Source: Cyanobium sp. C1_MAG_00004
GTDB lineage: Bacteria > Cyanobacteriota > Cyanobacteriia > PCC-6307 > Cyanobiaceae
Direction: 5' to 3'
Assembly: GCA_027486935.1 (NCBI GenBank)
Contig: JAIXOF010000227.1
Coordinates: 1 to 59,445 of the forward strand
DNA length: 59,445 bases
This document shows positions 1 through 9,502 of the stretch, one piece after another. The notes below the pieces were generated by a model that was not told where the DNA came from, ran no database searches, and was given only the letters and a program-made list of their open reading frames with translations. Made by a program: the position numbers and the translations under genes. Position 1 is the stretch's first letter, and each line of letters opens with the position of its first letter.

Positions 1-1843
1 AGCTGATCATGGCAAGCAATTTCGATGACAGTGCGGACTCATTGCCTTGATGCAGAGCTATCAGGCTTTCCACTGTCCCAAATTGTGATGACAGATGGAG
101 TCGCAATGTGTTGTCGGTGATCAAACGAACAGCAGCTGAGACATAGCTGGCCTCATCTATTGCAATTAACCATTCCGGTAGGCCTAGGCGCCGGTATAGG
201 GCCTGATCAATCGATTCAAACAAGTGTGTGCCCTGCATGCAGACACCAACTACGCCATTAAGGAGGACATCGACAATGCCGTTGCAATTGCCAAATGGGA
301 AAGGGTTGAGGCAAAGATCACAATTGGCGATCACCTGCATATAATCTGGATAGTCCAGGTGCGGATAGACACTACTAATATTAGGCAAGTAACCTGCGAC
401 AATTTTGCTGATTTGACGGTAGGTGATGCCAACACAACCTGCTATGAGAAAATTAAAATGGATCGGCACGTCTACCGCTTGAGCTATTCGCTTCAAGGTG
501 GCAAGGAAGGTTGGATTGAGTTTCATGGTTGAGGCGCAGATGGCAATATGCAGCACGCCCGTTCTTGGGTTGGCTTGCCGTTGATCCATGAATTGGCCCA
601 TGGCATCTGTGATTCGAAAGGGCATCTCATCGGGCTCAAGCCAGAGCAGATCTTCTGAAAAGAGGCTTGGATCTGGCACGAGATCACGCTCGCAAATGTA
701 GTAGTCAATAAAGTTGGAATGACTCGTGGCTGGATGACCCCAACTAGTCACCTGCAGCGGCGCCATCCGGAGGTTTGAGAGAAAAATATTTAACGGACTC
801 ATGCCAATACTGACCATGTAAATCACTGCTACATCATGGTGCTGGCAGATCTGCCTCACTGTCTGCAGTTGCTGGACCATGTCTACTTCACTGATCTCAT
901 TAAACTCATCGAAAACATGGCGCACCTGGTGATCCACACATTTTCCATAGCCCAGGCCAATGACATGAAAGTCGGCTTTCATGGCCTCTATTGTTTTGGA
1001 ATGGGTGCGATAAATCGAATGGTTGCCACCAAACCACTCCAGAGCCACCAGGGCAACCGGCTTACTCCCTTCAAGAGAAATCGGCAATTTCTGGCAAGGC
1101 AGATCAGCGAGGCCTTGTCCAACAATCCATTGCCGCACTAACCGGTTAATCGAGCCCTTGATTGCATGACGGTCGGCAGTGGTGGCATAGCTACAGTGCA
1201 TATAAACATCATGCAAGGTCTGGGTTGGGATCTCCTCCAACCGACCCAGTTGGTTAAGTTTGTCGGTAAGCCAAGGTAGAAGCTGATTGCGCTTTAGGTG
1301 GGCCGCGTCAGAGCCTAAAAAGCGGGGAGACAGCAGCACCATGGCCAAAGACACAGCCATCTCTGGGTAATGATGCCTGAGCAAATCTATGTTGAGAGGA
1401 ATCTGCGATTCTGGTGAATAGAGAAAGGCAAATTTAGGCAAATCCTCTAAATTCAAAGTATATTCAGTTGAGCCAGTCGACTCCGGCAGATTAAAAATTT
1501 CAAGGATATGATCAGTGGAATGAAAATCGCTAGCAGCGAAAATTGCGGATATCCAGCGCTGCCAACGCATCAACTCGCTAAATCCCAGGGCACTCAGTTG
1601 AAACCCCGGATCGGCAAATAGCGAGGTAATTGCCGCTGCCAGGCGATGAATGACATGATCAAAATAAACGTCGAGCTGGTAATTCTCAGGAACCTGGGGA
1701 TGAATACGGGCGTCAATCATGCCCGATAGGGAATCAAGGGTCGCGAGAATCGCTACCAGCTGCTTAACAGCTTGCTCAGAGTCGCGACGATAAACTAGTA
1801 GCTCAAATAGTTCTAGATTTGACTTCAATGCTCTATGGCTCAA
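1..1843 (-). CDS. HMW1C-like protein N-glycosyltransferase (GT41), 3' end cut by window edge
   Basis: Reading the minus strand by hand gives one uninterrupted frame of about 614 codons that leaves the window at base 1. It is closed upstream by TGA at 1844-1846. The frame has no ATG near its 5' end; TTG at 1843 or TTG at 1828 are the likely starts, and the first ATG is at 1720. The C-terminal part carries the HMW1C signature NPFPFGNCNGIVD (269-307) followed by VGVC and RLGLPEWLI. GHPATSHS lies near 725-745, MKLNP near 515-527, and YPHLDYPDY just before the signature. From recall these hold the counterparts of the UDP-binding/catalytic His, Lys, Asn and Asp of Actinobacillus NGT. That family is cytoplasmic and moves glucose or galactose from a UDP-sugar onto Asn in N-X-S/T of secreted adhesins. 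HMW1C is about 620 residues, so only about 20 residues are missing. Divergent partner: the sequon-rich autotransporter at 2260. Family call firm; substrate inferred. Confidence 0.86.
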   Translation of the reverse strand, partial: MSHRALKSNLELFELLVYRRDSEQAVKQLVAILATLDSLSGMIDARIHPQVPENYQLDVYFDHVIHRLAAAITSLFADPGFQLSALGFSELMRWQRWISAIFAASDFHSTDHILEIFNLPESTGSTEYTLNLEDLPKFAFLYSPESQIPLNIDLLRHHYPEMAVSLAMVLLSPRFLGSDAAHLKRNQLLPWLTDKLNQLGRLEEIPTQTLHDVYMHCSYATTADRHAIKGSINRLVRQWIVGQGLADLPCQKLPISLEGSKPVALVALEWFGGNHSIYRTHSKTIEAMKADFHVIGLGYGKCVDHQVRHVFDEFNEISEVDMVQQLQTVRQICQHHDVAVIYMVSIGMSPLNIFLSNLRMAPLQVTSWGHPATSHSNFIDYYICERDLVPDPSLFSEDLLWLEPDEMPFRITDAMGQFMDQRQANPRTGVLHIAICASTMKLNPTFLATLKRIAQAVDVPIHFNFLIAGCVGITYRQISKIVAGYLPNISSVYPHLDYPDYMQVIANCDLCLNPFPFGNCNGIVDVLLNGVVGVCMQGTHLFESIDQALYRRLGLPEWLIAIDEASYVSAAVRLITDNTLRLHLSSQFGTVESLIALHQGNESALSSKLLAMIS

Positions 1844-2259
1844 TCAGCCAAACTATACTGGGCTGCAGGCAAGCTGCCAGGCCTCTTTGGCTGGATAAAT
1901 GACAGCAGATGTGCAAAGCGATACATTTGGATGTCCTTGCCTCAGAGGCATTGATGTTGCAGTCTGCTCTCACAACGGCACCTCAAAAGCAGTGAGAGCA
2001 CCAAATAAAAGTCAGTTTGTTATGCAGCATGGCAGAAATAGCTTATTAAGCACAATCGCAAGACTCGATTCACGTTGCGGCCGGACAAGGAAGACCTAAT
2101 TCAGATACATCCAATAATTGGAGGGAGACAAAACGTTGCCCATGCTGAATTGACATGACCGACAATTCCGGATGCAGAAAATTATATAGACCATGGTCGA
2201 TAGACAGCAAAACTGCTGACGCGCTATTTTAAATAATATTTGTTTGGGTATTAACTGAG
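1844..2259. promoter_or_regulatory. Divergent intergenic region between N-glycosyltransferase and autotransporter
   Basis: This AT-rich spacer of about 416 bases must hold the promoters of both divergent genes. On the minus strand a TATAGT lies at 1852-1857, close to the TTG starts, which would give a very short or absent leader. On the plus strand TTGACA (2150-2155) and TATATA (2183-2188) are present but about 27 bases apart, so they do not make a canonical pair. TAATAT at 2234-2239 is another possible -10. A strong Shine-Dalgarno sequence GGAGGGA (2120-2126) precedes only a five-codon frame (2136-2153). A 66-codon plus-strand frame at 1899-2099 shows no recognisable features and I do not call it. 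Confidence 0.45.
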
Positions 2260-5200
2260 ATGACTAGTGAGCCAAGAATAGGTAATGCCTATGTCGGTAG
2301 CTCCCTCATCGCAACTAGAGCCGAAAATACAAGCAAGCCAAGCAACCGCAGCAGCACGGGTAACATCAAGTCAACTTTTAAGAAAAAAGTCACGCTAAAG
2401 CTATCGGCTGCAATCGCTGGCTCCGATAACCTGATCCTTGCTGATCGTAGTTACAGAAGTCCAAGTCACTGGCCTACTAAGGCTGACCGTTCACTGGGGG
2501 CTAAAACATCCGGCAAAGTAGAAAAAAAGAGCTGGGCTGAGCAATGCAAAGGCATAACTCAGCTATCTCACCAGATCGAGTTTCATCGCCAATCATGGTT
2601 TAGAAAAGTAACCCGAACTCCGACTCTTGCAATCAGTTCGGCAGCGATCAATGGCCTCCTGTTGGTGACCCCGCTGGCGAGCCATGCGCAAACAACAACA
2701 ATCTATGGAACTGGGGGGATTTCCAATACCTACAGTGGTGGCACCATCAATACCGGTGATAAGGTAATCCTCAATGATGGCGCCAGCGTCACGGGCGACA
2801 TCATTGATAATGGCACTCTGGAATTCAACCAGACCATAGACCTGGTGATCAATAACCTGATCTCAGGCACCGGCGCGCTATCGCTAATCAACTCGGGCCA
2901 ACTAATCCTCAGTGGCGCAAACACCTACACAGGCAACACCACCATTAACTCCGGCACTCTCGTCGTATCCGGTCTCCTAGCTGATAGCAGCAATGTCTAT
3001 GTGAACACGGGTGCCACTTATCAGGTGGACGAAACCGATACGATCGGCTCGATTGCTGGCAACGGTACGATTAAATTAAACGGCAGGAGCTTAACGGCCG
3101 GTGGATCGAATAGCACCACAACCTTCAGTGGCATGATAATAGAAGAGGGTTACCCATACACGGGGTCATTCACCAAGGCGGGCACAGGAACCCTCACCCT
3201 CAGCGGCAACAACACTTATACCAGCGGCACAACCCTGGCGGGCGGAACCCTGAGCCTGGGCTCAAACCAGGCCCTTGGCACGGTAGGCAACATTAGCTTC
3301 AGCGGTGGCAGCTTGCAATTCACGGCGAATAACACCACCGATTATTCAGCGCGCTTTAGCCAAGATCCTAACCAAGCCTATGCGATTGATACCAATGGCC
3401 AAAACATCAGCCTGGCCACTGGTTTAACCAGTGCCGGTGGCAGCCTCACCAAGCAAGGCACGGGCACCTTAACCCTCACCGGTAACAACACCTACACGGG
3501 ATCGACGACAATCGACGCTGGTACCCTGCGGATTGGTAACGGAAGCGGCAGCGTCTCCATTAGTAACTCATCCACTGGCTATCTCGGCCTTGTCAGTGGC
3601 AGCAACGGCACGGCAACGGTTTCCACGGGGGGGACGTGGACCACGACGGGCGACCTTTTTATCGGCTACGCGGGCAATGGCACCCTGACGGTGAGCGGAG
3701 GCACTGTTTCTAACGTCAATGGTGTGATTGGAAAAATAGCTGGAAATAACCTGGATCCCACCGACCCAGATTATATCGCTCGAAGCAATGGCATGGTCAC
3801 AATCTCTGGTGGCAATTGGACGAATACTGGCTATCTTTCCGTTGGCGACGGAGGCACTGGCACCCTAACGGTGAGCGGAGGCAATGTTTCTAGTGCCTCT
3901 GCCGGGATTGGGTACGACAGCACGGCAATAATCTCTGGCGGCAATTGGTCGAATTCCGGTGACTTTACCATAGCCAATCAATCCAATTCTAACTTAACAA
4001 TAAATGGTGGGCTTCTGACGGTAGGAGGGACGCTCACTAAGGGTGGTTCCGGCAAAATCAATCTCAACGAGGGAGGAACTCTTTCAATTGGTGGAGGCGG
4101 AACAAATGCAAAGCTAAATACCAATGGTAACTTCACCTACAACGGCACCCTCATCTTCAATACGACCAATACTGAAGCCTACCAAAACAGCTTTAGCGGC
4201 TCCGGCTCGTTAATCAAGGAAGGATCAAATACCTTGACACTCACGGGCAATAACACCTACACCGGCACCACTACAATCAACGGAGGTACTCTGCAAATCG
4301 GCAATGGAGCCAATAACGCCTCTATTAGTAGTGCGTCCAACATCATCAACAATGCCAACTTAGAGTTTAGAAGCAGTAATAACCAGACCTACGGAGGCCA
4401 GATCTCAGGCTCGGGTGCCCTTAATAAACGCCAAGGTGGCACTCTCACACTCAGCGGCAACAACACCTACACCGGCAACACCACGATCCATGCCGGCACC
4501 CTACAAATCGGTGCCGGTGGCACGTCAGGATCCCTGGTTTCTAATGTCAGCGGTGGCCCACTGGTCTTTAATCGCAGCGATTCTTCTACCTATGGGGGGG
4601 TGTTCTCGGGGTCGACCCTTACCAAACTCGGTGCAGGCACCCTCACCCTCACTGGCAACAATACCCACACAAGCGCAACCACCATCAGCGCCGGCACCCT
4701 GCAAATCGGCGACGGTGGCACTAGCGGCGCGATCACTAATTCATCGAGCATCGTCAACAATGCCAACCTGGCCTTTAATCGGAGCAATGACTATACTTAT
4801 GGTGGGATGATCTCGGGCAGCGGGAGCCTTACCAAGCTTGGTGCAGGCACACTCACCCTCAGCGGCTACAACACCTTCAACGGCACCACCACCATCAGCG
4901 CCGGCACCCTGCAAATCGGTGCCGGTGGCAATAGCGGCGCCATCAGTAATTCATCGAGCATCGTCAACAATGCCAACCTGGCCTTTAATCTCAGCAATGA
5001 CTATACCTATGGCGGACTGATCTCGGGTGGGGGGACCCTTACCCAGCTTGGTGCAGGCACCCTCACCCTCACCGGAAACAACACCTACACAGGTACCACT
5101 AACATCAGCGCCGGCGCCCTGCAGATCGGTGACGGCGGTACTAGCGGCGCGATCAGTAATTCATCCACTATCACCAATAATGCCAATCTGGCCTTTAGTC

Positions 5201-8106
5201 GCAGCGATGTCACCAGTTACACCGGCGCAATCACAGGCTCAGGCAACCTCACCCAGCTCGGGGAAGGCACCCTCACCCTCAGCGGCAACAACACTTACAC
5301 CGGCACCACCACCGTCAGCAACGGGACACTGAAAGCAGGCTCAACCTCGGCGCTCGGTATGAATTCAGAAGTCACACTTGCCAATGTTGCAGGTGTGACA
5401 CTTGATCTCAATAGCTACAACAACACCATCGGAGCTCTTACTGGTGGTGGGACCAGCGGCGGCAACGTCAATCTGGGTGGCGCAATACTCACCATAGGAT
5501 CTCTCAATACCAGTACAACTTATGGTGGTGTGATTAGTGGGACTGGTGGCCTCACCAAAACTGGCACTGGGGTTCTCACGCTGGATGGCGTGAGCACTTA
5601 CACGGGAGCAACAACAGTAACGACCGGAAGCACGCTTGCTGTGAATGGTTCCATTGCAAGTGCGTCAGGATTGAGCGTCAATTCAGGAGCAACACTTCAA
5701 GGCACTGGCATGCTGCCTGGGACGACTGTGCTTGCTGGGGGGATTTTGGCGCCAGGGAATTCAATTGGCACTCTCAATGTTCAAGGTAATCTGACCCTAG
5801 CCAGTGGTTCAATCAGTGCATTTGAAATTGGCGTTACAGATGCCGACAAGATCGTCGCCACAGGGAACATCTCACTTGGCGGAACGCTAAATCTCACTTT
5901 TGGAAGCTTAAATTATGCTTCCTCTTCGAATTACACGCTGTTTTCCGGTGCCTCGGTTGCTTCTTATTTTTCAACGGTTAACGGAATCAGCCTGCCATCT
6001 TCGTATACCTACACGATTCAATATACCAGCAATAGCGTGCTGCTCTCATTGGTCAAAGTCATGGCCCCCGGGACAACAACCGACATCACTGATGACAACA
6101 GCACGGCCTTCTCTGGTGGCACGCTAGTCGTGAATAGCTCAGGATCATATGCACAGAATTGGTCGCTCGGTCCCGAGGCTACTAACACAGTTAATTTGGA
6201 TGGCAATAGCTCAGTATTCAGCGGAGTCTTCTCTGACTCAACTCCAGGTCAGGCTGGCAACATCACGTTCTCCAATCCCGGATCTCTGGCTCTAACGGGT
6301 ATTAGTTCGTACACCGGCTTTACCGACGTAAGCAACGGTGCCAATGTCACAGTCAATGGCTCCATCGCCTCATCCTCTGGATTAACCGTCAATTCAGGCG
6401 GCACCATTGGCGGCACGGGCAGCTTGCCCCAGACCGACCTCGTCGCAGGCGCCACGATTGCTCCTGGCAATTCAATCGGCACGGTCACAGCCTTAGGCCT
6501 CAGCCTGAACGGCGGCACCATTGATGTTGAAATCCAAGGACCGCAGAACGACCGGATCAACGTGACTGGCCAAGTCACCAATTTCACCGGCAACGCCAAC
6601 CTGATCCCCTATGGCGGTGGCAGTCCCTGGCCGAACTTCAATTACACGATCATCTCGGCCACCAATAGCGCTGATTTTGCGAGCTCCAGCAGCCTTACCC
6701 TCGATCAGTCCGCTGTGACCAGTGCTCTGCTGCGCAGTGGCACCACGTTGATTCAGGAAGCCGACAACGACCCCAACACCTTTGATGTGCAGTGGCAGCC
6801 CACCAGTGGCACCGGTGCCACCACCTCTGCAATGCAGACCCTGGGCCAGAGCTCCAGCAACCAGCTGGCCACCGCTGGTGCGCTTGACAGTGTCTTCCGC
6901 ACGTTGGCCATCAGCGCGGCCAACAATGGCAACAACACCGGCACGCTGATTGGCAGCACTGGCTTTACGACAGGGCAGGCAGCAGCTGCGGGCATCACGG
7001 CTGAGTTCTTGAGCGGCACGTCTCAACTGCTCAGCCTCACCTCAACCAGCCAGCTCACGGCTGCCATCAATTCTCTCTCGCCCGAGTCCTACGCGGCATT
7101 TCAGAGCGTTGGTCTCGACACCCTCAAACGCCAGCGTGAACTGCTGCTCGGCCAGGCCGGCACCTGCACCAGCACCGGCTGGGTGGTGAATGCCCCCACT
7201 AGCAAACAAGGCAAGCAGCCCAAGCAGCCGCTCTGCGTGTTTGCCAAAGCTGCCAATGCCACCAGCTCGATCAACGGTCAAAACGGTCTGTCCTCCTACG
7301 ACTCCGGGATTTTCTCGACCTACTACGGCGTGGAGTACAAGCCCGCCAAGCCCTGGACGATTGGCGCGGCCTACGGCTACGGCAGCTCCACCCTCAACAC
7401 CATGAGCCTCACCAATGCGGTGGTGAGTTCAGCGGTGAACAGCGGCAGCATCTATGGGGTGTACAAGCCTTCTGAGGCCTGGACGATCCGGGCGCTGCTG
7501 GGTTACAGCAACTTCAATGGCACAGCCAGCCGCAATGTGGCCGCCATCGGCAATGGTTCGGCGATCAACGCCAGCCCGAGCGCCAACGGCTACACCGCGT
7601 CCATCAACGCCGACTACCTGATCTGGTTGACCCCGCCAACGGCCAAGACCGCGGCCTACCTCAAGCCCTTGCTGGGCATCGCCTGGGGCGGGTATCAGCA
7701 AGGTGGTTTTGCTGAATCGAGCAACGGTGCCTGGAACCTCAATGTCAACGGCCACACCGCCAACAGCCTGCTGGGCACGGTCGGGCTGGAGCTGGCGTTC
7801 TCGCCCATTGCCCTGAACCGCAGCAAGACCACCGCGATCAAGCCACGGCTGGCCATCGCCTACCAGGTCGATGCCCTGGGCAACGACTCAGGCGTCAAAT
7901 CATTGACCGCGTCCTTTGCCCAGGCTCCTGCCGCCGGTTCCTTCACCACCCAAGGGCAGAACCGCGGCGTCAATACCCTCACGATCGATGGCGGCATTGA
8001 CCTGCAAGTGGCGAGCAATGCCTCGCTCTACGCCAACGTCGGCTATGAAACCTTCTCCAGCGGCTCGCAGTTCACCTACGGGGGTGGACTCAAGGTCAAG
8101 TTCTGA
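2260..8106 (+). CDS. Giant autotransporter adhesin with PATR beta-helix passenger
   Basis: A 1948-residue type Va autotransporter. An unusual hydrophilic, basic extension (residues 1-115) precedes a signal-like hydrophobic stretch (about 118-143) ending ASHA before QTTT. Residues about 144-1450 form a Gly/Asn/Ser/Thr-rich beta-helix with about eleven passenger-associated transport repeats (PATR) centred on LTLSGNNTYTG. Six of them recur every 197-213 bases between 4234 and 5274. The C-terminal 260 residues form the autotransporter barrel, ending in the strand FTYGGGLKVKF with terminal Phe. I count about 60 N-X-S/T sequons in the passenger. The family is exported by Sec, inserted by Bam and displays the passenger on the cell surface. 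An in-frame TAA at 2230-2232 limits the start to 2260 or later; no clear ribosome site precedes it. The passenger is AT-richer than the barrel. The adhesion role is inferred from the family. Confidence 0.88.
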   Translation: MTSEPRIGNAYVGSSLIATRAENTSKPSNRSSTGNIKSTFKKKVTLKLSAAIAGSDNLILADRSYRSPSHWPTKADRSLGAKTSGKVEKKSWAEQCKGITQLSHQIEFHRQSWFRKVTRTPTLAISSAAINGLLLVTPLASHAQTTTIYGTGGISNTYSGGTINTGDKVILNDGASVTGDIIDNGTLEFNQTIDLVINNLISGTGALSLINSGQLILSGANTYTGNTTINSGTLVVSGLLADSSNVYVNTGATYQVDETDTIGSIAGNGTIKLNGRSLTAGGSNSTTTFSGMIIEEGYPYTGSFTKAGTGTLTLSGNNTYTSGTTLAGGTLSLGSNQALGTVGNISFSGGSLQFTANNTTDYSARFSQDPNQAYAIDTNGQNISLATGLTSAGGSLTKQGTGTLTLTGNNTYTGSTTIDAGTLRIGNGSGSVSISNSSTGYLGLVSGSNGTATVSTGGTWTTTGDLFIGYAGNGTLTVSGGTVSNVNGVIGKIAGNNLDPTDPDYIARSNGMVTISGGNWTNTGYLSVGDGGTGTLTVSGGNVSSASAGIGYDSTAIISGGNWSNSGDFTIANQSNSNLTINGGLLTVGGTLTKGGSGKINLNEGGTLSIGGGGTNAKLNTNGNFTYNGTLIFNTTNTEAYQNSFSGSGSLIKEGSNTLTLTGNNTYTGTTTINGGTLQIGNGANNASISSASNIINNANLEFRSSNNQTYGGQISGSGALNKRQGGTLTLSGNNTYTGNTTIHAGTLQIGAGGTSGSLVSNVSGGPLVFNRSDSSTYGGVFSGSTLTKLGAGTLTLTGNNTHTSATTISAGTLQIGDGGTSGAITNSSSIVNNANLAFNRSNDYTYGGMISGSGSLTKLGAGTLTLSGYNTFNGTTTISAGTLQIGAGGNSGAISNSSSIVNNANLAFNLSNDYTYGGLISGGGTLTQLGAGTLTLTGNNTYTGTTNISAGALQIGDGGTSGAISNSSTITNNANLAFSRSDVTSYTGAITGSGNLTQLGEGTLTLSGNNTYTGTTTVSNGTLKAGSTSALGMNSEVTLANVAGVTLDLNSYNNTIGALTGGGTSGGNVNLGGAILTIGSLNTSTTYGGVISGTGGLTKTGTGVLTLDGVSTYTGATTVTTGSTLAVNGSIASASGLSVNSGATLQGTGMLPGTTVLAGGILAPGNSIGTLNVQGNLTLASGSISAFEIGVTDADKIVATGNISLGGTLNLTFGSLNYASSSNYTLFSGASVASYFSTVNGISLPSSYTYTIQYTSNSVLLSLVKVMAPGTTTDITDDNSTAFSGGTLVVNSSGSYAQNWSLGPEATNTVNLDGNSSVFSGVFSDSTPGQAGNITFSNPGSLALTGISSYTGFTDVSNGANVTVNGSIASSSGLTVNSGGTIGGTGSLPQTDLVAGATIAPGNSIGTVTALGLSLNGGTIDVEIQGPQNDRINVTGQVTNFTGNANLIPYGGGSPWPNFNYTIISATNSADFASSSSLTLDQSAVTSALLRSGTTLIQEADNDPNTFDVQWQPTSGTGATTSAMQTLGQSSSNQLATAGALDSVFRTLAISAANNGNNTGTLIGSTGFTTGQAAAAGITAEFLSGTSQLLSLTSTSQLTAAINSLSPESYAAFQSVGLDTLKRQRELLLGQAGTCTSTGWVVNAPTSKQGKQPKQPLCVFAKAANATSSINGQNGLSSYDSGIFSTYYGVEYKPAKPWTIGAAYGYGSSTLNTMSLTNAVVSSAVNSGSIYGVYKPSEAWTIRALLGYSNFNGTASRNVAAIGNGSAINASPSANGYTASINADYLIWLTPPTAKTAAYLKPLLGIAWGGYQQGGFAESSNGAWNLNVNGHTANSLLGTVGLELAFSPIALNRSKTTAIKPRLAIAYQVDALGNDSGVKSLTASFAQAPAAGSFTTQGQNRGVNTLTIDGGIDLQVASNASLYANVGYETFSSGSQFTYGGGLKVKF
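2893..5600 (+). repeat. Tandem PATR repeats at DNA level inside the autotransporter
   Basis: Near-identical segments encoding L-T-L-x-G-N-N-T begin at about 3192, 3469, 4234, 4444, 4641, 4854, 5064 and 5274, with weaker copies near 2893 and 5575. The central six are spaced 210, 197, 213, 210 and 210 bases, so the unit is about 70 residues. Conservation extends through the following segment coding for T-I-S-A-G-T-L-Q-I-G, which suggests recent duplication or gene conversion. Such arrays readily change copy number. Confidence 0.85.
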
Positions 8107-8110
8107 TCGG

Positions 8111-8134
8111 GCCGGTCACTGACATCCGGCTTTT
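8111..8134 (+). terminator. Possible rho-independent terminator after the autotransporter
   Basis: GCCGG (8111-8115) pairs with CCGGC (8126-8130) across a 10-base loop and is followed directly by TTTT. It lies five bases past the stop codon. The stem is short, so this is a weak to moderate candidate. Confidence 0.4.
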
Positions 8135-8280
8135 GAGCAGGGGTGGCAGGTCAGTTCTTCGTTGGCATGGTTTCTGAGACGTTGGCTCAGAACGCCTGGC
8201 CGTGCTGTTGGATTGCCAGTCACTTGCATAGCCGCTGCCTTGAGGCCAGCACAGTGTGGCCGCTGATCTAGCAAGGTCAA

Positions 8281-9357
8281 TCAGAACCGGTAGTTCACAC
8301 CAGCCTGCAGGATTTGACTAGCAGCTGTATAGACATTACCTCCAAATGAGAGACCAGGTCGATAGCGGACATAGGCGCGCATTTTGGAATTGATGAGATA
8401 TCCAAAGTCCAAAAGACCGCCAAGGTTCGTTTGCAATTCACGACTCGCCGTTTGGACAAACTGGGGGCCAACTTCGACGGCAAAGGTAAAGGGATACCAG
8501 GTTTCTGACAGGCCCACGTAAGCCCGGGTCTGCACCTCTCTCAACTGTCCATTGGGACGGAAAAACCAAGCAGGCTCTACACGTGCATAAAATCCCTTTT
8601 CAGGCAGGTTAATCAGCTCGATAACATCAGGCACGATGCGACTTCCAGCAAATGAATAAACAACGCCTGCCCTGACTGTGTTTTCTAAACGCGTCTCACC
8701 CAACACATCAGCGCCGGCTAGCCCACGCCAATTCACATAAATGTTAAGGTCATCGCCACGACCGGGTGACAAGGTCGCTGACACATCCATTCTTAAAGGG
8801 GTGTCGTCATTACCAGGCACGTTGTAAGTGTGCTGGAACAAGGGGCCGAGCTGGGCCGACCAACTGAGCAGGTTATCTGTGCTGCCCCTGATGTTGCCTG
8901 AGACACCAAATCCAACAAACGTGGCACCGGCAGCGGGACCAGTTCCCCAGGCGGCCCCAGTACGCGGGAAGTCCCAAGCTGTCGTTTGCTCAACAATGGC
9001 AAAAAAGCCGGGCTTGGTGACCACGCCGTAGATACTGGGCTTGCCTTTTTTCTTGGCTGTTTCCTCAACCTTGTCATGTGTGCCAGGCCGTTCCTGAATG
9101 GCAGGACTCGCAGCGTGGGCCAAAGTTGGCTCAAGGGATGACTGACTGTCGACCTTGTCCACCAGAATGGACGGGGCAGGAGCAGAGTTTTGCTCAGCAG
9201 GCTTTGCTTGAAGAGGAGCCCAAGGAGCAGAAGCGAGCGCAACACTGGTCGAAAGGCCCACGCTGCAGGCACGGTCAACCAAGGCCCCGGAAAGACGAGG
9301 CTGAACAGAAGCCTGAGTCATCCGGCTGATTACAGCTGCCAAACAATGGCCGTTCAT
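8281..9357 (-). CDS. Predicted outer-membrane beta-barrel protein
   Basis: I do not recognise a named family. The frame opens at a TTG at 9417, but ATG at 9357 or 9321 is more likely; the latter puts a signal-like stretch (SVGLSTSVALASAPWA) near the N-terminus. A Pro/Ala/Lys-rich linker (about residues 50-110) leads to GKPSIYGVV. The rest reads as alternating aromatic/hydrophobic beta strands such as FYARVEPAWFF, TRAYVGLSETWYPF and MRAYVRYRPGLSF, and it ends LQAGVNYRF. A C-terminal Phe after an alternating last strand is the usual Bam recognition signal. It converges on the autotransporter and lies downstream of the peptidase gene on the same strand. It may belong to the same envelope module, but nothing in the sequence shows its substrate. 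Confidence 0.6.
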   Translation of the reverse strand: MNGHCLAAVISRMTQASVQPRLSGALVDRACSVGLSTSVALASAPWAPLQAKPAEQNSAPAPSILVDKVDSQSSLEPTLAHAASPAIQERPGTHDKVEETAKKKGKPSIYGVVTKPGFFAIVEQTTAWDFPRTGAAWGTGPAAGATFVGFGVSGNIRGSTDNLLSWSAQLGPLFQHTYNVPGNDDTPLRMDVSATLSPGRGDDLNIYVNWRGLAGADVLGETRLENTVRAGVVYSFAGSRIVPDVIELINLPEKGFYARVEPAWFFRPNGQLREVQTRAYVGLSETWYPFTFAVEVGPQFVQTASRELQTNLGGLLDFGYLINSKMRAYVRYRPGLSFGGNVYTAASQILQAGVNYRF

Positions 9358-9502
9358 TGGCAAATTCGCTGTTCTGAATCGGAGGTTTTTATCAGGATTC
9401 AATTGACTTGGCAACATTCGGTCGCGACTTCAGAACGAAATACAATGATGCGTTTTATGCCAAATCCCTGGCCGTCCTCAAACCGCCATGGTGCCAGTCC
9501 GA

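Follow-up and report, generated by a model that had tools for sequence, protein, structure and literature searches.

Background

A 2014 review sorted HMW1C-like enzymes into two groups, one encoded next to tpsA/tpsB and one without an evident target in the neighbourhood, and named Pasteurellaceae, Enterobacteriaceae, Neisseriaceae and Burkholderiaceae as the families in which the type is prevalent (PMC3983070). Both classical and trimeric autotransporters are known targets of the N-glycosyltransferases (NGTs) of this type (PMC8151025, PMC5303269). In the enzyme of Aggregatibacter aphrophilus (AaNGT), R177 and D215, both essential (the variants R177A and D215A have no activity), read the Thr at position +2 of the sequon, H214 contributes to sequon reading, and the donor or product is contacted by H276, S277, R280, H370, K440, H494, Y500, N520 and D524 (PMC10507012). 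HMW1C-type glycosylation has so far been studied mainly in pathogens.

Here we describe a locus of a freshwater-type picocyanobacterium that belongs to the same family as the Synechococcus sp. UW140 MAGs. The window, i.e. the whole stretch of 59,445 bases that was analysed, is a single contig (G000:C222) of a 2.98 Mb assembly in 239 contigs. At its left edge lies the gene for an HMW1C-like enzyme, head to head with the gene for a large autotransporter (Table 1). We consider it quite probable that the two constitute a system for protein N-glycosylation in the cytoplasm without a lipid carrier, by which the autotransporter is N-hexosylated before secretion.

The gene pair and its flanks

Table 1. 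Features of the enzyme-autotransporter locus (positions in the window)
Feature	Position	Strand	Details
HMW1C-like (GT41) N-glycosyltransferase	2..1843	-	614 aa; PF18071, PF18254, PF13844, NF049992
Divergent intergenic region	1844..2259		416 bp, 44.5% GC
PATR-type classical autotransporter, probable substrate	2260..8106	+	1948 aa, 69 N-X-S/T; PF12951, TIGR02601
Hydrophobic signal-peptide-like segment	2605..2691	+	residues ~116-144, ...TLAISSAAINGLLLVTPLASHAQ; follows long N-terminal extension
PATR repeat span	2893..5643	+	PF12951 matches; GxNT cores mostly GNNT, i.e. a sequon
C-terminal translocator region	6937..8103	+	beta-barrel domain about 7237-8040; PF03797; terminal F

The initial annotation had described a minus-strand frame of HMW1C/NGT type, open to the left edge, facing a PATR autotransporter. 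Both descriptions were borne out, the first by domain and profile matches to the 614-codon frame and the second by the PATR repeats and a PF03797 barrel. The intergenic region holds four promoter-like sites against 1.1 expected, one of them (CTGGCA-17-TATAGT) immediately upstream of the enzyme gene; these sites are no evidence of function.

The GC content of the enzyme gene (48.6%) and of the autotransporter gene (55.3%) is low compared to that of the remaining window (66.7%), which fits either an origin elsewhere or a constraint on composition. These values would also suit two genes that are merely carried together on a low-GC island with no functional link, but relatives retain both genes at different loci, and we give this explanation a slender chance. 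The autotransporter gene is adjoined, in convergent orientation, by a gene (8281-9417, minus strand) encoding a predicted outer-membrane beta-barrel of 378 aa without any sequon and with a weak match to PF24653 (cyanophage outer membrane protein-like).

The enzyme is of the HMW1C/NGT class

At the contig edge the coding strand of the enzyme gene ends with ATC AGC T where the three nearest relatives have ATC AGC TGA, and the coding sequence is therefore complete except for two bases of the stop codon. A continuation to the left into a domain other than GT41, which would have spoken against the initial annotation, is thereby ruled out, as the stop is expected two bases past the contig end. Translation may start at the TTG at 1843 or at an in-frame TTG five codons on, which is ATG in two relatives.

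The Pfam domains HMW1_D2 (E 8.6e-23), HMW1C_N (2.4e-22) and GT41 (4.1e-7) were all found over their cut-offs. A less sensitive whole-genome search with PF13844 missed the enzyme, whereas the protein scanned alone scored over the cut-off, and this miss was not used. The NCBIfam model NF049992 (UDP-glucose:protein N-beta-glucosyltransferase) covers residues 8-612 (E 1.9e-172) with 575 bits, below the equivalog cut-off of 1000, so that the family is shared but the curated equivalog group is not reached. The closest solved structures are those of AaNGT and of ApNGT from Actinobacillus pleuropneumoniae (E about 1e-137; 6.5e-138 for PDB 3q3e). An AlphaFold model built on 28 aligned sequences (pLDDT 89) matched the AaNGT and ApNGT crystal structures (8p0o, 3q3e) with a TM of 0.92 in Foldseek, with O-GlcNAc transferases far behind at about 0.5-0.6. 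The protein has the N-terminal all-alpha domain, the GT-B catalytic domain of GT41 and the length (about 620 aa) of an NGT, and its assignment to the HMW1C/NGT class from sequence and predicted fold is, in our judgement, close to certain.

Compared with the AaNGT structures, the residues for sequon reading and for the donor site are present, including the catalytic Lys, His, Asn and Asp that the initial annotation had singled out. R174, H211 and D212 correspond to R177, H214 and D215 of AaNGT and are invariant across 28 homologues, as are H275, S276, R279, G369, H370, K441, Y501, N521, G522 and D525. The UDP-sugar site of AaNGT is matched throughout (H275, S276, R279, H370, K441, H495, Y501, N521 and D525); the uracil-stacking His, H495, is Gln in the three cyanobacterial relatives.

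An HMW1C-like GT41 protein might have acquired a changed activity, acting on another acceptor or extending a glycan, and be no Asn glycosyltransferase at all. The identity of about 39% to the characterised enzymes, the score below the equivalog cut-off, the deep cyanobacterial branch described below and the replacement of AaNGT S495 by Leu and T519 by Cys would all fit such a change. Against this, the Arg/Asp dyad is kept, H276, S277, R280, H370, K440, N520 and D524 of AaNGT are unchanged and the predicted fold is that of the NGTs, which makes the change of activity highly improbable.

Distribution of the enzyme

A full-length enzyme was found in four of 400 genomes of the family, i.e. that of the window (G000) and G397, G472 and G487, three uncultured Synechococcus MAGs of the genus g154, two of them labelled UW140. 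Their enzymes are 79-81% identical to that of the window. Another g154 genome (G435) yielded only a match of 61 residues at a contig end, and samples across the phylum (386 and 354 genomes) gave zero additional strong matches. A quick tree of 78 sequences placed the four proteins from cyanobacteria in a single clade (support 99), separate from the 69 rows that represent Proteobacteria, Chlorobiota and Bacteroidota; the tree is midpoint-rooted and leaves the direction unproven.

Further GT41 proteins of Cyanobiaceae and other cyanobacteria (G573, G674, G129, G172) were rejected as extra examples, as the Arg of the sequon dyad is absent in all five of these distant proteins, from four genomes, that were compared. 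Two GT41 proteins without this Arg are encoded together in G172 (L044:4400-6178 and 7660-9441); they are weakly similar to the enzyme of the window and flank a 445-aa gene, with a 2185-aa protein encoded further downstream. Several plasmid-borne HMW1C homologues, in Caballeronia (NZ_CP084253.1), Salmonella (NZ_CP092862.1) and E. coli, are apparently misannotated, as 'peptide transporter' or 'cobalt ABC transporter permease'.

Architecture of the autotransporter

The protein facing the enzyme combines a passenger with PATR repeats (PF12951, E 8.3e-71, 11 repeats; also a match to TIGR02601) and a barrel on one chain, the organisation of a type Va autotransporter. Its C-terminal 389 residues scanned alone matched PF03797 with an E of 4.7e-37 over residues 101-368 of that segment. 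The same beta-domain was present in 19 of 19 aligned sequences, and the last residue of the window protein is Phe. After an unusually long N-terminal extension, a hydrophobic segment (residues 120-144) ends with ASHAQ and is conserved in the autotransporters of G397, G472 and G487; residues ~116-144 are, judged by eye, a putative Sec signal peptide. The barrel family occurs in 48 of the 400 family genomes and is thus a cyanobacterial family far commoner than the enzyme. An open frame of 20,437 residues with many PATR repeats lies in a related picocyanobacterium (G370:C1, about 870000-918000).

Co-occurrence and gene neighbourhoods

With the N-terminal 203 residues of the autotransporter as a query, 25 genomes were tested. 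Homologues of the N-terminus, starting from the signal-peptide region, were found outside G000 only in G397 (C44), G472 (C186) and G487 (C60), i.e. in the same four genomes that have a full-length enzyme. In 19 further genomes, including the own genus of the window, the matches started at query residue 53 or later, which is the repeat region. The N-terminal extension and signal region are common to the four autotransporters in the alignment.

The arrangement of the two genes is less stable. The autotransporters of G397, G472 and G487 are encoded away from the enzyme, and these copies end at a contig break or have no recognised barrel on their contig. In G397 a barrel remnant (L038:8344-8799; 47% identity over 113 columns) adjoins the HMW1C gene in the same divergent orientation as in the window, which suggests an old adjacency. 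The enzyme gene of G472 and G487 lies among different genes (for acetolactate decarboxylase/synthase, a LuxR-type regulator and a protein of 729-734 aa), and the enzyme-autotransporter cassette is therefore not conserved. The expectation that the gene pair is conserved in relatives thus held for co-occurrence but not for the intact head-to-head arrangement, and conserved adjacency was discarded as evidence of a link, as it is absent in two of the three relatives.

The 729-734 aa protein (L037:3448-5637, L039:6972-9176) is encoded divergently from HMW1C in G472 and G487, at the place of the autotransporter in the window; it is conserved, has no significant Pfam match and contains almost no sequons. 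The gene for the LuxR-type response regulator (L037:8215-8976, L039:11594-12301) lies directly downstream of HMW1C in both relatives, a position whose equivalent falls off the contig of the window.

We also inspected 77 HMW1C loci from outside the cyanobacteria. Long sequon-rich exoproteins were frequent, one of them with a confirmed TPS domain, and no PATR proteins were found near these loci with a home-made PATR profile. Four beta-proteobacterial HMW1C neighbours (L102:3-6743, L139:1-4200, L149:1-9879 and L103:3-7808) have 12-14 sequons per 100 aa, the densest N-X-S/T in this analysis; those of L102 and L139 are without a Pfam match, and the L102 protein is made of repeats such as GNGSTNITG.

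Sequon enrichment

Sequons were counted as N-X-S/T with X not Pro, and expectations were derived from composition-preserving shuffles. The initial annotation had put their number in the autotransporter at about 60; the full-length protein has 69, of which 60 lie in residues 146-1560. In the latter region the shuffled sequences gave 42.7 +/- 5.3, so that the number exceeds what the Asn, Ser and Thr content predicts; it is also above that of matched controls. The 1,559 residues ahead of the barrel query hold 61 (43.1 expected) and the barrel segment 7 (5.3 expected). Among 212 ORFs of at least 200 aa, taken from a 383-kb sample of the same genome as background, the autotransporter ranked first with 3.54 sequons per 100 aa, the runner-up having 2.35 and the ORFs overall 0.31.

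Among 41 PATR/autotransporter proteins, the four partner autotransporters, three of which (G397, G472, G487) are contig-broken, had the highest densities (3.57-4.31 per 100 aa), compared to a median of 1.33 and a maximum of 2.93 for the passengers of the 37 others. The enrichment z was 3.1-5.8 for the partners and had a median of 0.8 for the others (rank test p 1e-4, a value that overstates independence, as the four partners are homologous and come from two related genera).

The sequons could also be a mere by-product of an Asn/Gly/Thr-rich PATR beta-helix, with the enzyme modifying something else. The PATR core itself is often GNNT, and raised counts occur in genomes without the enzyme: a 2114-aa PATR protein of G596, a genome in which no HMW1C was detected (C81, L190:1142-7486; z 4.1, density 2.9, N-X-S more frequent than N-X-T), is an exception to the association between enzyme and enrichment, and a PATR/autotransporter protein of G566 reaches z 3.4. 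Nevertheless, the enrichment persists when the GxNT core is masked (54 sequons against 36.2 expected, z 3.8), and it is specific to offset +2, where Ser/Thr follows Asn 1.45 times as frequently as at +3 to +8. Enrichment is also absent from the majority of the 37 comparison proteins, and we regard a by-product as unlikely.

A more serious alternative, although in our opinion a doubtful one, is that the enzyme N-glycosylates exported proteins in the cytoplasm generally, the autotransporter being just one of several targets and encoded next to it by coincidence. The enzymes ApNGT and those of Kingella and A. aphrophilus are indeed encoded away from their targets (PMC5303269, PMC3983070), G472 and G487 have lost the adjacency, and two more of the sampled ORFs are relatively rich in sequons (2.0-2.4 per 100 aa). 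On the other hand, 69 of the 318 sequons across the sampled ORFs sit in the autotransporter alone, and the other PATR/autotransporter proteins of the enzyme-bearing genomes (G000:C14, G397:C54, G472:C129 and G472:C1) are not clearly enriched (z -0.0 to 1.8). The first of these, a 1616-aa CHAT-domain PATR protein with no recognised barrel (L036:1177-6027), was considered as a further substrate and rejected for lack of sequon enrichment.

A model for the locus

In the reading that we prefer, a dedicated system, the enzyme would transfer hexose units singly (probably glucose, with UDP-glucose as the donor) to the Asn of N-X-S/T in the newly made autotransporter. The glycosylated passenger would then cross the inner membrane by Sec, pass the outer membrane via its own C-terminal barrel and be displayed on the surface as a glycosylated beta-helix, with possible roles in adhesion, aggregation or protection. 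In this model the catalytic activity, the donor sugar and the order of events are predicted, and the autotransporter is the probable main substrate.

The initial annotation, which read the locus as an HMW1C enzyme with a sequon-rich partner, is supported on the whole. It had named four outcomes that would count against it (a left extension unlike GT41, missing catalytic residues, a sequon number explained by composition and a pair that does not occur together in relatives), none of which was found; the link between enzyme and substrate was drawn from sequence only.

Evenly poised, in our view, is a wider proposal, namely that a cyanobacterial HMW1C lineage, apart from the sampled proteobacterial ones, co-evolved with one dedicated classical autotransporter, the passenger of which accumulated sequons for N-linked hexose to yield a densely glycosylated surface fibre on planktonic picocyanobacteria.

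If the pairing is real, lipid-free protein N-glycosylation would extend to a photosynthetic, free-living and non-host-associated lineage, suggesting that HMW1C-type glycosylation serves more than host adhesion. Glycoengineering, and studies on site choice by such enzymes, would also gain a naturally matched enzyme with a classical autotransporter as its substrate. A usable test of such pairings is whether the sequon enrichment of the partner tracks the presence of the enzyme.

Comparison with known systems

In open-access full texts we found no report that brings HMW1C, autotransporters and cyanobacteria together, although a search of this kind is weak evidence of absence; judged by title and abstract, the open-access literature on HMW1C with Synechococcus held nothing on cyanobacterial glycosylation. 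No TPS partner as in HMW1-type tpsA/tpsB loci was seen among the genes examined beside the enzyme, the left flank of which is off the contig.

ApNGT (ApHMW1C) and AaNGT resemble the enzyme of the window in domain architecture, length and predicted fold, and have the sequon-reading dyad and most donor-site residues in common with it, but the window enzyme belongs to a separate cyanobacterial clade. ApNGT is encoded in a rimO-ngt-agt operon at a distance from its adhesins, while the gene in the window is divergent from that of a PATR autotransporter. In HMW1A-HMW1B-HMW1C of Haemophilus and EtpBAC of E. coli, the gene for a dedicated cytoplasmic N-glycosyltransferase also adjoins that for a large sequon-rich exoprotein; those exoproteins, however, are exported by two-partner secretion through a separate TpsB pore, while the neighbour in the window has its own barrel. 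The heptosyltransferases Aah and TibC, acting with AIDA-I, TibA and Ag43, likewise tag classical autotransporters with sugar in the cytoplasm before export (PMC8151025), but they belong to an unrelated enzyme family and attach heptose to Ser/Thr. Since NGTs were already shown to modify classical and trimeric autotransporters, both the chemistry and the substrate class were known before; what is new is that the enzyme comes from a cyanobacterial lineage and that its gene lies divergently beside that of a PATR autotransporter.
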